From Methanolinea sp. (GTDB taxonomy: Archaea > Halobacteriota > Methanomicrobia > Methanomicrobiales > Methanospirillaceae): 36,282 nucleotides of DNA. Under the pieces are notes generated by a model. That model did not search any database. It was not told the DNA's origin and saw only the letters and a program-made list of their open reading frames with translations. The stretch spans positions 1-36,282 of the forward strand of contig JASEES010000009.1 in NCBI GenBank assembly GCA_030019395.1. The letters are read 5' to 3'. Of the stretch, positions 24,284-28,365 are shown piece after piece. Both the position numbers and the translations under genes were made by a program. The number at the start of each line of letters is the position of its first letter. Position 1 is the stretch's first letter.

Positions 24284-25465
24284 TTAAAAGTCCGTCATCA
24301 CCCGGAACTGGTCGATCTCTTCCTTGTTCAGCTGCTCGAGGAAGAGCTCTGCCGCAGAGCGGACGTCCTTGCTCGCCGTGATCGCCCTCCCCACCACGAC
24401 GATATCGGCACCGGCGGAAAGGGCATCCCTGACCTTGTCCACTCGTATTCCGCCCGCTGTGGCGACGAGCAACCGCCCGCCTGCGGCCTTGCGGAGGGCA
24501 GGGATATCACCCCAGGCATGTGCCGAGCCTTCTGTATCGATGGCACGGTGGAGCTCAACGACGTCAGGCTTTGCTTTGAGTCCCTTGATAACCCTGACCG
24601 GGTCGGCAACGTTGAGCATGTCGATGACCGAGTAGATACCGGTCTTGCGGGCCTCGGCAATCGCTTTTTCGAGGGTTGCCTGCGGGGCAAGACCCGAGAT
24701 GACGACGGCATCGGCAGAGGCATCGGCTGCCATCCGGGCCTCGAGGTTGCCGGTATCGAGGACTTTGAGGTCGGCGATGATGAAGGCAGATGGCCGGACC
24801 TTGCGTATCTCGCTGATGATGGAGAGGCCGAACCTCTTGATCAGGGGGGTGCCGGCCTCGATGATGAGGTGATCGTTCTGCGGAAGCTCGGTGAGCACGG
24901 AGCGGACCTTTGCCATCTCCACGAGGTCGAGGGCGACCTGGAGATAGGGCGGGTCCCAGAGGCGCTGGACCTTGAAGCCCATGACGGCATGGGGTGCCCT
25001 GTCCTTTTCGTAGAGGAGGGTTTTTTGGTCCGGGAAGTTGTCGAGCGCCCGGGTAATGGCAAGCTTCGTTGCCCCGTAGTTGTACCGGTAGATCCGGTTG
25101 TAGTCGGAAGCTTCCGGGTCGAGGTAGACGCTTGCCAGGATGACGAGCGACTCGAGGTCCCTGTCCCCGAAGGCTCCTTCCTCGACAGCGTCCGCAACTG
25201 CCTTTGCAACGGCAGCCTGCACCGGCCCAAACATCTCCCGGATCTGGCTTCCCTTCCGGAGCGTTACCTTCGGGATGATGAGGGTTGCCGGTTTTGTCAT
25301 CAGGTTGGGCCGGATCACGGCAAGGAGGGGTGTATGCCCTGCAGAGAGCTGGGAGAGGGCGTTTGCAAACGCCGTCCCGACCGGTCCGTCCTTGTCCCCG
25401 AGGATAAGGTCCACGTGCGCGAGTTCCGGCCCCTCGCCGACCAGTGCTTCACCGATGTGGTACAT
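24284..25465 (-). CDS. fae-hps: Bifunctional formaldehyde-activating enzyme / 3-hexulose-6-phosphate synthase
   Basis: A 393-residue fusion. Residues 1 to about 165 are Fae, which condenses formaldehyde with tetrahydromethanopterin; the catalytic His17 is in ELAHVDLILGDK. Residues about 172-393 are Hps, an orotidine-decarboxylase-fold TIM barrel recognised by the ADLKVLDTGNLE motif (231-242) and the phosphate-binding TAGGIRVDK segment. In methanogens lacking the oxidative pentose phosphate pathway the fusion is thought to release ribulose 5-phosphate from hexulose phosphate and capture the formaldehyde set free. A minus-strand TATA (CATATATTTATC, about 25509-25520) and AAGGAG about 14 bases before the ATG support this start. 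Confidence 0.95.
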   Translation of the reverse strand: MYHIGEALVGEGPELAHVDLILGDKDGPVGTAFANALSQLSAGHTPLLAVIRPNLMTKPATLIIPKVTLRKGSQIREMFGPVQAAVAKAVADAVEEGAFGDRDLESLVILASVYLDPEASDYNRIYRYNYGATKLAITRALDNFPDQKTLLYEKDRAPHAVMGFKVQRLWDPPYLQVALDLVEMAKVRSVLTELPQNDHLIIEAGTPLIKRFGLSIISEIRKVRPSAFIIADLKVLDTGNLEARMAADASADAVVISGLAPQATLEKAIAEARKTGIYSVIDMLNVADPVRVIKGLKAKPDVVELHRAIDTEGSAHAWGDIPALRKAAGGRLLVATAGGIRVDKVRDALSAGADIVVVGRAITASKDVRSAAELFLEQLNKEEIDQFRVMTDF

Positions 25466-25535: not shown

Positions 25536-26327
25536 TCAGGTCAGGAGACGCCCTGAAACGACGAGCACCGTGTTTCCGGCGAGGATGACCCTCTCTCCCT
25601 TCACCGTGACCCTGACTGCACCTCCCCTCCGGGAGCACTGGAACCCCGACAGGCTCGCCTTTGAAAGCCGCCCGGCCCAGTAGGGGCCGAGGGAACAATG
25701 GGCAGAACCGGTCACCGGGTCTTCCGGTATCCCGATCGAGGGGGCAAAGAAGCGTGATACGAAGTCATAGTCCGGCGTGTCCGACGGGGCGGTCACGATG
25801 ATCCCCCTGGCAGGAAGCGCGGCGAGGGCATCCATGTCAGGATCGAGGGTGCAGACGTCCGTTGCAGAGGGGAGTTCAAAGAAGAGATCGAACCGGGTCC
25901 TCCCCGGGAACACCACGGGGCACCCGAATGCGTCCTCGATTCCCTCCGGCGGATCGCATGCGTCCACGGGGACGGACGGGAAGTCAAGGGCTATTTCCCG
26001 GGAGTCCATCGAGGCAGCCAGCGGTCCTGACCGTGTCAGGAAACGGATGGAGGAATTCCCCTCTTCCCTCCCCGTCGCCCAGAGGACAAAAGCCGAGGCA
26101 AGTGTTGCATGACCGCACAGGTCGACCTCGGCCCGGGGTAAAAACCACCGGAGTTCCCACGAGTCATCGAGCCTGCGGAGGAATGCGGTCTCCGGGTGAT
26201 TCAGCTCAAAAGCCACGTTCTGAATCCAGGAACTCTCCCTCTCCTCTCCGGTGATGCAGACTGCCGCAGGGTTGCCGCAGAAAGGAGTGCTCGTGAATGC
26301 ATCGACGATGTGGAGTTCTGCGGGCAT
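25536..26327 (-). CDS. PhzF family isomerase-like protein
   Basis: A 263-residue protein of the PhzF/diaminopimelate-epimerase fold. Family signatures are VDAFTSTPFCGNPAAV at the N-terminus, Glu46 in NHPETAFL (the general acid/base of PhzF), the DLCGHATLASAF motif, and DPVTGSAHCSLGPYW in the second half. No phenazine cluster is nearby, so this is one of the many PhzF-like proteins of unknown substrate. It lies 70 bases upstream of fae-hps on the same strand, but the separate TATA box of fae-hps argues for independent transcription. Confidence 0.9.
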   Translation of the reverse strand: MPAELHIVDAFTSTPFCGNPAAVCITGEERESSWIQNVAFELNHPETAFLRRLDDSWELRWFLPRAEVDLCGHATLASAFVLWATGREEGNSSIRFLTRSGPLAASMDSREIALDFPSVPVDACDPPEGIEDAFGCPVVFPGRTRFDLFFELPSATDVCTLDPDMDALAALPARGIIVTAPSDTPDYDFVSRFFAPSIGIPEDPVTGSAHCSLGPYWAGRLSKASLSGFQCSRRGGAVRVTVKGERVILAGNTVLVVSGRLLT

Positions 26328-26400: not shown

Positions 26401-26560
26401 TGGGGCCGGTGAGATTTGAACTCACGATCGACGGGTCTCTCCGACATGCGTCAGTGCTCCAACGGATCATCATCCGGTTTCAGCAGACCCATTGTTCATC
26501 ATTCACACGACGCGAAAGACCGCTGGAGCCCGTCGCCATTCCGGACTAGGCCACGACCCC
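26401..26560 (-). tRNA. tRNA-Trp (CCA) with an 86-nt intron
   Basis: Exon 1 (26560-26523) and exon 2 (26436-26401) fold into a complete cloverleaf. The acceptor stem pairs GGGGTCG with CGGCCCC, the D stem is GCC/GGC, the anticodon stem is ACGGG/CCCGT, and the T arm is GTGAG-TTCAAAT-CTCAC. The loop CTCCAG|A gives anticodon CCA (C34 at 26526). The intron sits between 37 and 38, the canonical archaeal site. A bulge-helix-bulge is evident: exon CTCC (32-35) pairs with intron GGAG, flanked by three-base bulges cut after their second base. The discriminator is A and no CCA is encoded. A TATA-like TTAAATCC lies about 30 bases upstream on the minus strand. Confidence 0.95.
26437..26522 (-). ncRNA. 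Box C/D guide RNA embedded in the tRNA-Trp intron
   Basis: Read on the minus strand, the intron contains box C (ATGATGA), box D' (CTGA), box C' (GATGATGA) and box D (CTGA) in order. CGTGTG and CGCATG form a 6-bp terminal stem. The guide before box D ends TTGGAGCA and pairs over ten positions with exon 1 and the first intron bases; the nucleotide opposite the fifth base upstream of box D is C34. The guide before box D' (ATGGGTCTG) pairs with AGACCCGT across the 3' splice site, and its fifth base faces C39. 2'-O-methylation of positions 34 and 39 by the unspliced intron is the mechanism established in Haloferax. Pairing to exon and intron together implies modification before splicing. Confidence 0.92.
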
Positions 26561-26664
26561 TTGACTGTATTAACTCACATTGAGCGGATTTAAGGGTTAT
26601 GCTGTGACAAGGCACGAAGGAAATTCCGGTGGGGCTATATGAATGAACATCGAACGATTTTGGG

Positions 26665-28365
26665 ATGGATGCAGGCAGTTACGATTGCGGTATTTCCGAC
26701 AAGCCCCTCCTCGGGTTCACGGTAGGCGAAATGTTCTCCCAGGTCGCCCGGAAATATCCGGATACCGAGGCCCTCGTCTCGGTGCACCAGGGGATACGGT
26801 ACACCTACCGGGACCTCCTCCGGAAGGTGGAAGAACTCGGGAAGGGACTGATGGCAATCGGGGTTGAAAAGGGCGACCGGGTCGGGATATGGGCCATGAA
26901 CCATGCCGAGTGGGTCGTGACCCAGGTCGCGACTGCAAAGATCGGGGCGATCATGGTCAACATCAATCCCGCCTACCGGACGTACGAGCTCGAGTACGTG
27001 CTCCGGCAGGCCGAGATCCAGACAGTGATCCTCCAGGACCGGTTCAAGACCTCCGACTACGTGGGCATGTTCCTCGAGGCGTGCCCGGAGGTCGCGGCGT
27101 CCCGCCCGGGCCACCTGCATACCGAGAAGTTCCCGTTCCTGAAAAACGTCATCTTCATGGGTGAAAACGCCCCGGACGGCATGTTCTCGTGGGACGAGAT
27201 CAACCACATGGGACACGACGTATCCGATGACGAACTTTTTGCCCGGGAAGAATCCCTCTCCTTTGATGATGCTGTCAACATCCAGTACACGAGTGGCACG
27301 ACGGGGTTTCCAAAAGGCGTCGTCCTCTCCCACCACAGCATCGTCAACAACGGCAACATCATCGGCGACGGGATGAACTTCACCGAAAAAGACAGGCTCT
27401 GCATCCCCGTTCCCTTCTACCACTGCTTCGGGATGGTGCTCTCGAACCTCGCCTGCATGACCCACGGATCGACCATGGTCCTGCCCGGACCGACGTTCAA
27501 CGCGGGGGAAGTCCTCCAGTGCATTGAAAAGGAGCGGTGCACGGCCCTCCACGGCGTCCCGACGATGTTCATCGCCGAGCTCTCCCACCCCGACTTTTCC
27601 CGGTACTCCATGGAGACCCTGCGCACCGGTATCATGGCAGGATCCCCCTGTCCCATCGAGGTGATGAAGGAGGTGAACAGGAAGATGCACATGTCAGAGA
27701 TCGTCATCGTGTACGGGCAGACGGAGACAGCCCCCGGGATCACGATGACAACGACCCGCGACCCGCTCGAGCGCAGGGTCTCGACGGTGGGGCGCGTCTT
27801 CCCCCATACCGAGATCAAGATCATCGACCCGAAGACAGGAAGGATCGTCCCCCGCGGAGAGGTTGGCGAGATCTGTGCCCGCGGGTACTGCGTCATGAAG
27901 TGCTACTACAACAACCCGAGTGCCACCCACGCAACGCTCGATGCAGACCGGTGGAACCATACCGGGGACCTCGGGACGATGGATGCCGAGGGGTACGTCA
28001 AGATCGTCGGGCGGTTAAAGGACATGGTCATCCGGGGCGGCGAGAACATCTACCCCCGCGAGATCGAGGAGTTCCTCCACAACCACCCGAAAATTGCCGA
28101 CGTGTACGTGATCGGCGTCCCCGACGAAAAGTACGGGGAGGAACTGATGGCCTGGATCATGGTCGAGAAGGGAGAGACGATGACCGGGGAGGAAGTCAGG
28201 GAGTTCTGCAGGGGAAAGATTGCCCACTACAAGATCCCGCGGTACGTCAAGTTCGTGACAGAGTTCCCGATGAACATATCGGGGAAGATCCAGAAGTACA
28301 AGATGAGGGAGATCTCCATCAGGGAACTTGGTCTTGAGAACGTGTCGAAGATCGAGACCGCGTGA
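26665..28365 (+). CDS. AMP-forming acyl-CoA synthetase (FadD-like)
   Basis: A 566-residue adenylate-forming enzyme that activates a carboxylic acid to acyl-AMP and then acyl-CoA. The phosphate loop is YTSGTTGFPKG (208-218); the adenine motif YGQTETAPG, the hinge WNHTGDLGTMD and GRLKDMVIRGGENIYPREIEE, and the catalytic lysine in SGKIQKYKMRE near the C-terminus are present. The closest class is medium/long-chain fatty acid CoA ligase; the true substrate (branched acid, fatty acid, aromatic acid) is open. A TATA-like GCTATATGAA centred about 26 bases before the ATG at 26665, and no ribosome site, suggest a leaderless message. Confidence 0.9.
   Translation: MDAGSYDCGISDKPLLGFTVGEMFSQVARKYPDTEALVSVHQGIRYTYRDLLRKVEELGKGLMAIGVEKGDRVGIWAMNHAEWVVTQVATAKIGAIMVNINPAYRTYELEYVLRQAEIQTVILQDRFKTSDYVGMFLEACPEVAASRPGHLHTEKFPFLKNVIFMGENAPDGMFSWDEINHMGHDVSDDELFAREESLSFDDAVNIQYTSGTTGFPKGVVLSHHSIVNNGNIIGDGMNFTEKDRLCIPVPFYHCFGMVLSNLACMTHGSTMVLPGPTFNAGEVLQCIEKERCTALHGVPTMFIAELSHPDFSRYSMETLRTGIMAGSPCPIEVMKEVNRKMHMSEIVIVYGQTETAPGITMTTTRDPLERRVSTVGRVFPHTEIKIIDPKTGRIVPRGEVGEICARGYCVMKCYYNNPSATHATLDADRWNHTGDLGTMDAEGYVKIVGRLKDMVIRGGENIYPREIEEFLHNHPKIADVYVIGVPDEKYGEELMAWIMVEKGETMTGEEVREFCRGKIAHYKIPRYVKFVTEFPMNISGKIQKYKMREISIRELGLENVSKIETA

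Follow-up and report, generated by a model that had tools for sequence, protein, structure and literature searches.

The tRNA-Trp intron guide system has been known since 2001, and the intron guide of Haloferax volcanii was reportedly characterized by Clouet d'Orval 2001, Singh 2004 and Joardar 2008, as cited in reviews. In Haloferax the intron guides the formation of Cm34 and Um39, and the intron guide is present in at least 29 archaea (PMC2584109). The guide ribonucleoprotein works in trans and sequentially, with C34 modified before U39, and the guide in the Pyrococcus intron has been named sR50 (PMC7994747). Deletion of the intron in Haloferax abolishes both modifications and causes no growth defect under standard conditions; the guide is not essential there (PMC11408192). 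The second site has already been tabulated as `Um39 (or Cm39)' (PMC6313347).

The window, a stretch of 36,282 nucleotides of Methanolinea sp. DNA, carries a tRNA-Trp(CCA) gene that is interrupted at the canonical intron position (Table 1). This intron-bearing gene was missed by ARAGORN at its default settings and is detected both by the Rfam tRNA model and by the intron mode of ARAGORN. The latter places the intron one base earlier, which gives the same mature tRNA; the position defined by the bulge-helix-bulge motif was used instead. By inspection, this motif has bulges of 3 nt and a helix of 4 bp, CUCC/GGAG, and comparison with the pre-tRNAs of relatives shows that a CUCC/GGAG (or GAAG) splice helix is retained. 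Approximately 40 bases 5' of the gene (window 26561-26620, minus strand) the sequence CAGCATAACC(C/A)TTAAATC is kept genus-wide and is probably the promoter.

Table 1. Features of the tRNA-Trp(CCA) locus and its ordinary neighbours, in window coordinates.
Feature	Position	Strand	Basis or detail
Pre-tRNA-Trp(CCA), whole gene	26401..26560	-	Rfam tRNA 46.3 bits; ARAGORN with introns allowed
5' exon, nt 1-37; C34 = 26526	26523..26560	-	
Intron, 86 nt, canonical 37/38 position	26437..26522	-	
3' exon, nt 38-73; C39 = 26435	26401..26436	-	
Bulge-helix-bulge splice motif	26436..26528	-	Helix 26528-26525 / 26442-26439; bulges 26524-26522 and 26438-26436; by inspection
sR3 box C/D sRNA core	26449..26506	-	RF01133, 61 bits versus gathering 41, E 2.4e-14
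Box C AUGAUGA	26496..26502	-	Direct reading; sR3 alignment
D' guide	26485..26492	-	Pairs with 26438-26431 over the 3' splice site; +5 base opposite C39
Box D' CUGA	26480..26483	-	Direct reading; sR3 alignment
Box C' AUGAUGA	26467..26473	-	Direct reading; sR3 alignment
D guide	26456..26465	-	10 bp: nt 31-37 and intron nt 1-3; +5 base opposite C34
Box D CUGA	26451..26454	-	Direct reading; sR3 alignment
Terminal stem, six pairs, closes the C/D kink-turn	26445..26509	-	Arms 26509-26504 / 26450-26445; by inspection
Fae-HPS fusion, neighbour	24284-25465	-	
PhzF-like, neighbour	25536-26327	-	
AMP-binding acyl-CoA synthetase, neighbour	26665-28365	+	

An earlier note on this DNA had read four boxes (C, D', C' and D) in the intron, together with a terminal stem, and all of these could be located there. 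The Rfam sR3 match (61 bits, or 48.9 bits when the whole genome is searched) spans the full length of the model. The features that define sR3 membership are found together: the 37/38 location, the four boxes with a score above the gathering threshold, the +5 register of the guides and the bulge-helix-bulge. The genes for fibrillarin and Nop5 are adjacent to one another in the genome of the window (G000:C10). As far as sequence can tell, the intron is confirmed as an ordinary member of the already-known sR3 kind, to which it adds one more species.

The targets of the guides were assessed by a pairing scan in which each intronic C[U/C]GA motif was compared with the whole pre-tRNA under the +5 rule, with no target presupposed. 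For box D the sole target with at least 6 bp was C34, with ten contiguous pairs including one G-U. Among the exon targets of box D', C39 ranked first, with eight pairs including one G-U, and the sole longer match was with the intron's own guide region. This unbiased scan is in agreement with the earlier proposal of a D guide pairing over ten contiguous positions, one of them G-U, to reach C34 and a D' guide crossing the 3' splice site to reach C39. For random guides of the same composition, the probability of 10 bp at C34 is P=2.4e-4 and that of 8 bp at C39 is P=1.1e-3; both pairings together were obtained in 0 of 200,000 random guide trials. The target of most archaeal box C/D sRNAs is rRNA, and this would favour a guide that chiefly serves another target of that sort, with the match to the tRNA being secondary. 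However, the matches to C34 and C39 are long, are exact in register and track the identity of position 39, and we regard such a role as extremely improbable.

We put at about 0.93 the probability that the intron is a dual box C/D guide of the sR3 type that directs 2'-O-methylation of C34 and C39, with splicing forming part of the same model. L7Ae, Nop5 and fibrillarin would assemble on the intron, either in the precursor or following excision. The D guide would direct 2'-O-methylation of the wobble base C34 in the unspliced pre-tRNA and the D' guide that of C39, and the bulge-helix-bulge would then let the splicing endonuclease excise the intron. By analogy with the described system, we infer that the guide may act in trans, on C34 before position 39, with methylation preceding splicing. 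The earlier description of a guide aimed at its own pre-tRNA therefore holds in the sense that guide and target belong to the product of the same gene, but not necessarily to the same molecule, since the Haloferax ribonucleoprotein acts in trans.

The two guides of the window differ in their dependence on the intron. The D duplex comprises 10 bp on the precursor versus 7 bp on the mature tRNA, which bears out the claim that the D pairing needs intron bases. The same lengths of 10 and 7 bp apply to most of the precursors compared. An advantage of 2-4 bp on the precursor is present in all 109 distinct guide-bearing pre-tRNAs that were compared, and this supports methylation of C34 ahead of splicing. 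The D' target AGACCC, on the other hand, is identical before and after splicing because the last two intron bases, AG, duplicate A36-G37 (8 bp on the pre-tRNA versus 9 bp on the mature tRNA). Of the two guides, only D therefore needs intron bases, and the D' pairing in this species can do without the intron. Because nt 32-35 are taken up by the D duplex as well as by the bulge-helix-bulge, the two folds are mutually exclusive, and the competition between them that had been suggested stands.

The sR3 element was found in 53 of 61 relatives and, at E <= 0.1, in 278 of the 391 genomes of the phylum, with 228 above the Rfam cut-off. The comparison set consisted of 117 distinct pre-tRNAs, 109 of them with guide-bearing introns. 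Part of the compared loci were collected via a match to the D guide, a scan with many chance bacterial matches among the matches listed, and the sample is consequently biased for conservation of D and gives no frequency. Genomes G304 (a gap of N in the intron) and G001 and G376 (no clear tRNA-Trp) were not scored as guide losses. In G019, neither a full tRNA scan nor searches with two exon patterns and one for the intron start revealed a tRNA-Trp, and its absence is probably an assembly gap. Elsewhere in this genome (L119, G019:C2:78300-79000), three weak tRNA-like matches spaced by approximately 180 bp are in line with two tRNA-Ala genes and are possibly a decaying tandem array.

In 109 of 109 guide-bearing introns the D guide places a G at +5 to face C34, and the +5 base of the D' guide is G in 92 pre-tRNAs with C39. 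Outside the haloarchaea, tRNA-Trp has G31-C39 in all cases examined, and the D' base is G wherever the register was scored. The haloarchaea have A31-U39 in 13 of 13 distinct pre-tRNAs, consistent with the statement in the earlier note that Haloferax tRNA-Trp follows the same logic with U rather than C at position 39. Their D' +5 base was scored by script as A in ten and as G in three; in one haloarchaeal locus (L133, the D' box of which, CAGA, was missed by the motif) the scored G is A by eye, and after this correction two haloarchaea have a wobble G against U39. The D' guide thus varies with position 39, with G for C39 generally and mostly A for U39 in the haloarchaea. This tracking is consistent with function but does not amount to strong statistics, because it represents mostly one evolutionary change.

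The D' half is looser than the D half. Variant D' boxes occur in L033, L185, L197, L233 and L266 (in a sample partly found via the D guide), in L036 and L265 one additional U separates box D' from its guide and shifts the register such that the +5 target would be A38 and not C39, and the D' guides of L038 and L195 are mismatched. These departures, set against a D guide and +5 base that are intact in 109 of 109 introns, would favour a model in which the D half alone works: the intron would guide Cm34, the D' elements would be kept for the k-turn architecture and C39 would be unmethylated or weakly methylated. The same model is favoured by Pyrococcus furiosus, in which methylation of C39 was predicted and was not detected (PMC7668247). 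However, Um39 is established in H. volcanii (PMC2584109), and the D' +5 base differs between methanogens and haloarchaea in keeping with their C39 or U39. In L252, moreover, the intron end is altered (...GAUACCC) and the D' guide is altered to fit it (GGGUAUA). The haloarchaea likewise have an altered intron end and a D' guide with the matching A; in L185 and L197 the intron end is altered but the old D' guide is kept, and it still fits the mature tRNA. The contrast between D and D' is itself biased where loci were found via the D guide, which further weakens the case for D alone, and we consider it unlikely. The preferred reading remains that of a guide with two working halves.

Several other features of the relatives were observed. 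In L020, L027 and L044, A37 replaces G37 in tRNA-Trp and the U of the D guide is then Watson-Crick paired; in the same loci the D' guide pairs better with the precursor (8 versus 6 bp). Large hairpin insertions between boxes D' and C' are present in L031, L032, L033, L071, L202 and L240, giving introns of up to 207 nt, and hairpins of the GAGAAACUC type recur in several of these insertions. The haloarchaeon G277 has two tRNA-Trp genes (L129 and L149) with the same intron sequence.

The earlier note had held that loss of the boxes from a close relative that retains the intron would speak against the guide. Such a loss is seen in G020, from the same family as the window organism: its tRNA-Trp intron, of 96 nt, still has an intact bulge-helix-bulge but is devoid of boxes D and D' and of both guides. 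However, nop5 and fibrillarin are also gone from this genome. Searching G020 with the Pfam Nop model gave no match. In a joined query with fibrillarin, Nop5, a TctA-like protein, Cbf5 and a thymidylate-synthase-like protein, the first four formed a conserved neighbourhood in G019, G022, G015, G018 and G023; the thymidylate-synthase-like gene adjoins it in G019 and G022 and lies elsewhere in G015, G018 and G023. In G020, cbf5, tctA and the thymidylate-synthase-like gene are on one contig, with 213 bases separating the latter two. This interval contains a tRNA-Gln alone, and the same tRNA-Gln is within the neighbourhood in G019 and G022. Neither nop5 nor the fibrillarin gene was found in G020 by the joined query, and the locus is free of gaps with intact neighbours (L301, G020:C50:76000-92000; L051/L072); the pair is therefore missing from a gap-free locus. 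Its absence alongside the loss of the guide supports a guide function and is no refutation of it.

A similar pattern was observed in G073, G065 and G081, in which tRNA-Trp is either intronless or interrupted by a short intron with no guide and in which fibrillarin and Nop5 were not found by the joined query. G065, a complete genome (1,067,436 bp) from another Halobacteriota family, has an intronless tRNA-Trp, and a full-sensitivity profile search of the complete contig recovered neither fibrillarin nor Nop5, the top matches being a PCMT methyltransferase and topoisomerase VI-B. Many other tRNAs of G065 were called with long introns (L309-L363), some of them doubtful. Both genes are present in all five guide-bearing genomes tested (G000, G015, G018, G022 and G023), and neither is present in four of the five tested genomes that lack the guide; the lineages compared are not independent. 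G066 has both genes, yet its intron (31 nt) is guideless; both are also present in G019.

The persistence of guideless introns in G020, G066 and G073, like the Haloferax intron deletion, which leaves growth unimpaired under standard conditions (PMC11408192), would be compatible with a plain splicing intron carrying a fossil guide, kept for splicing or by descent after its use in methylation was lost in this genome. This reading is very unlikely given that conservation of the guides and boxes far exceeds that of the spacers in the window and almost every relative, that fibrillarin and nop5 are present in the genome of the window and that both are absent from four of the five tested genomes without a guide.

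It is likely that some Halobacteriota lost fibrillarin and Nop5, the core of RNA-guided 2'-O-methylation, and that the tRNA-Trp intron guide was lost along with them. Fibrillarin is nearly ubiquitous among archaea (PMC8481954) and was reported missing in eight of 148, with loss and missing data not told apart (PMC7608942). Real loss of fibrillarin is favoured by the clean gap at the G020 locus and by the completeness of G065. No link between the absence of fibrillarin and the tRNA-Trp intron was found in the literature searched; this co-loss of the guide, fibrillarin and nop5 is what is new here, the feature in the window itself being already known. The co-loss provides natural genetic evidence that supports the role of the guide, and it is the part worth following. 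If it is true, the system is dispensable in nature, in line with the unimpaired growth of the Haloferax knock-out, and the genomes concerned would be natural knockouts for asking what purpose Cm34 serves.

Among the described systems, Rfam RF01133 sR3 (Pyrococcus-type) has the same boxes, guides and gene as the window, and its consensus D' guide, like that of the window, already has the +5 G that corresponds to a C39 target; relative to this model, the spacer between D' and C' in the window is 3 nt longer. The guide of Haloferax volcanii resembles that of the window in its 37/38 intron, its bulge-helix-bulge and the assignment of D to C34 and D' to position 39. The haloarchaea, however, combine A31-U39 with a D' guide that carries A or a wobble G; their boxes are degenerate, CCGA being frequent, and their intron measures 99-107 nt. 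The window has G31-C39, canonical boxes and an intron of 86 nt. The sR49 type, responsible for Cm34 of elongator tRNA-Met, is likewise a box C/D guide for C34 of an intron-bearing pre-tRNA but, unlike the guide in the window, is encoded outside the tRNA gene (PMC2584109).
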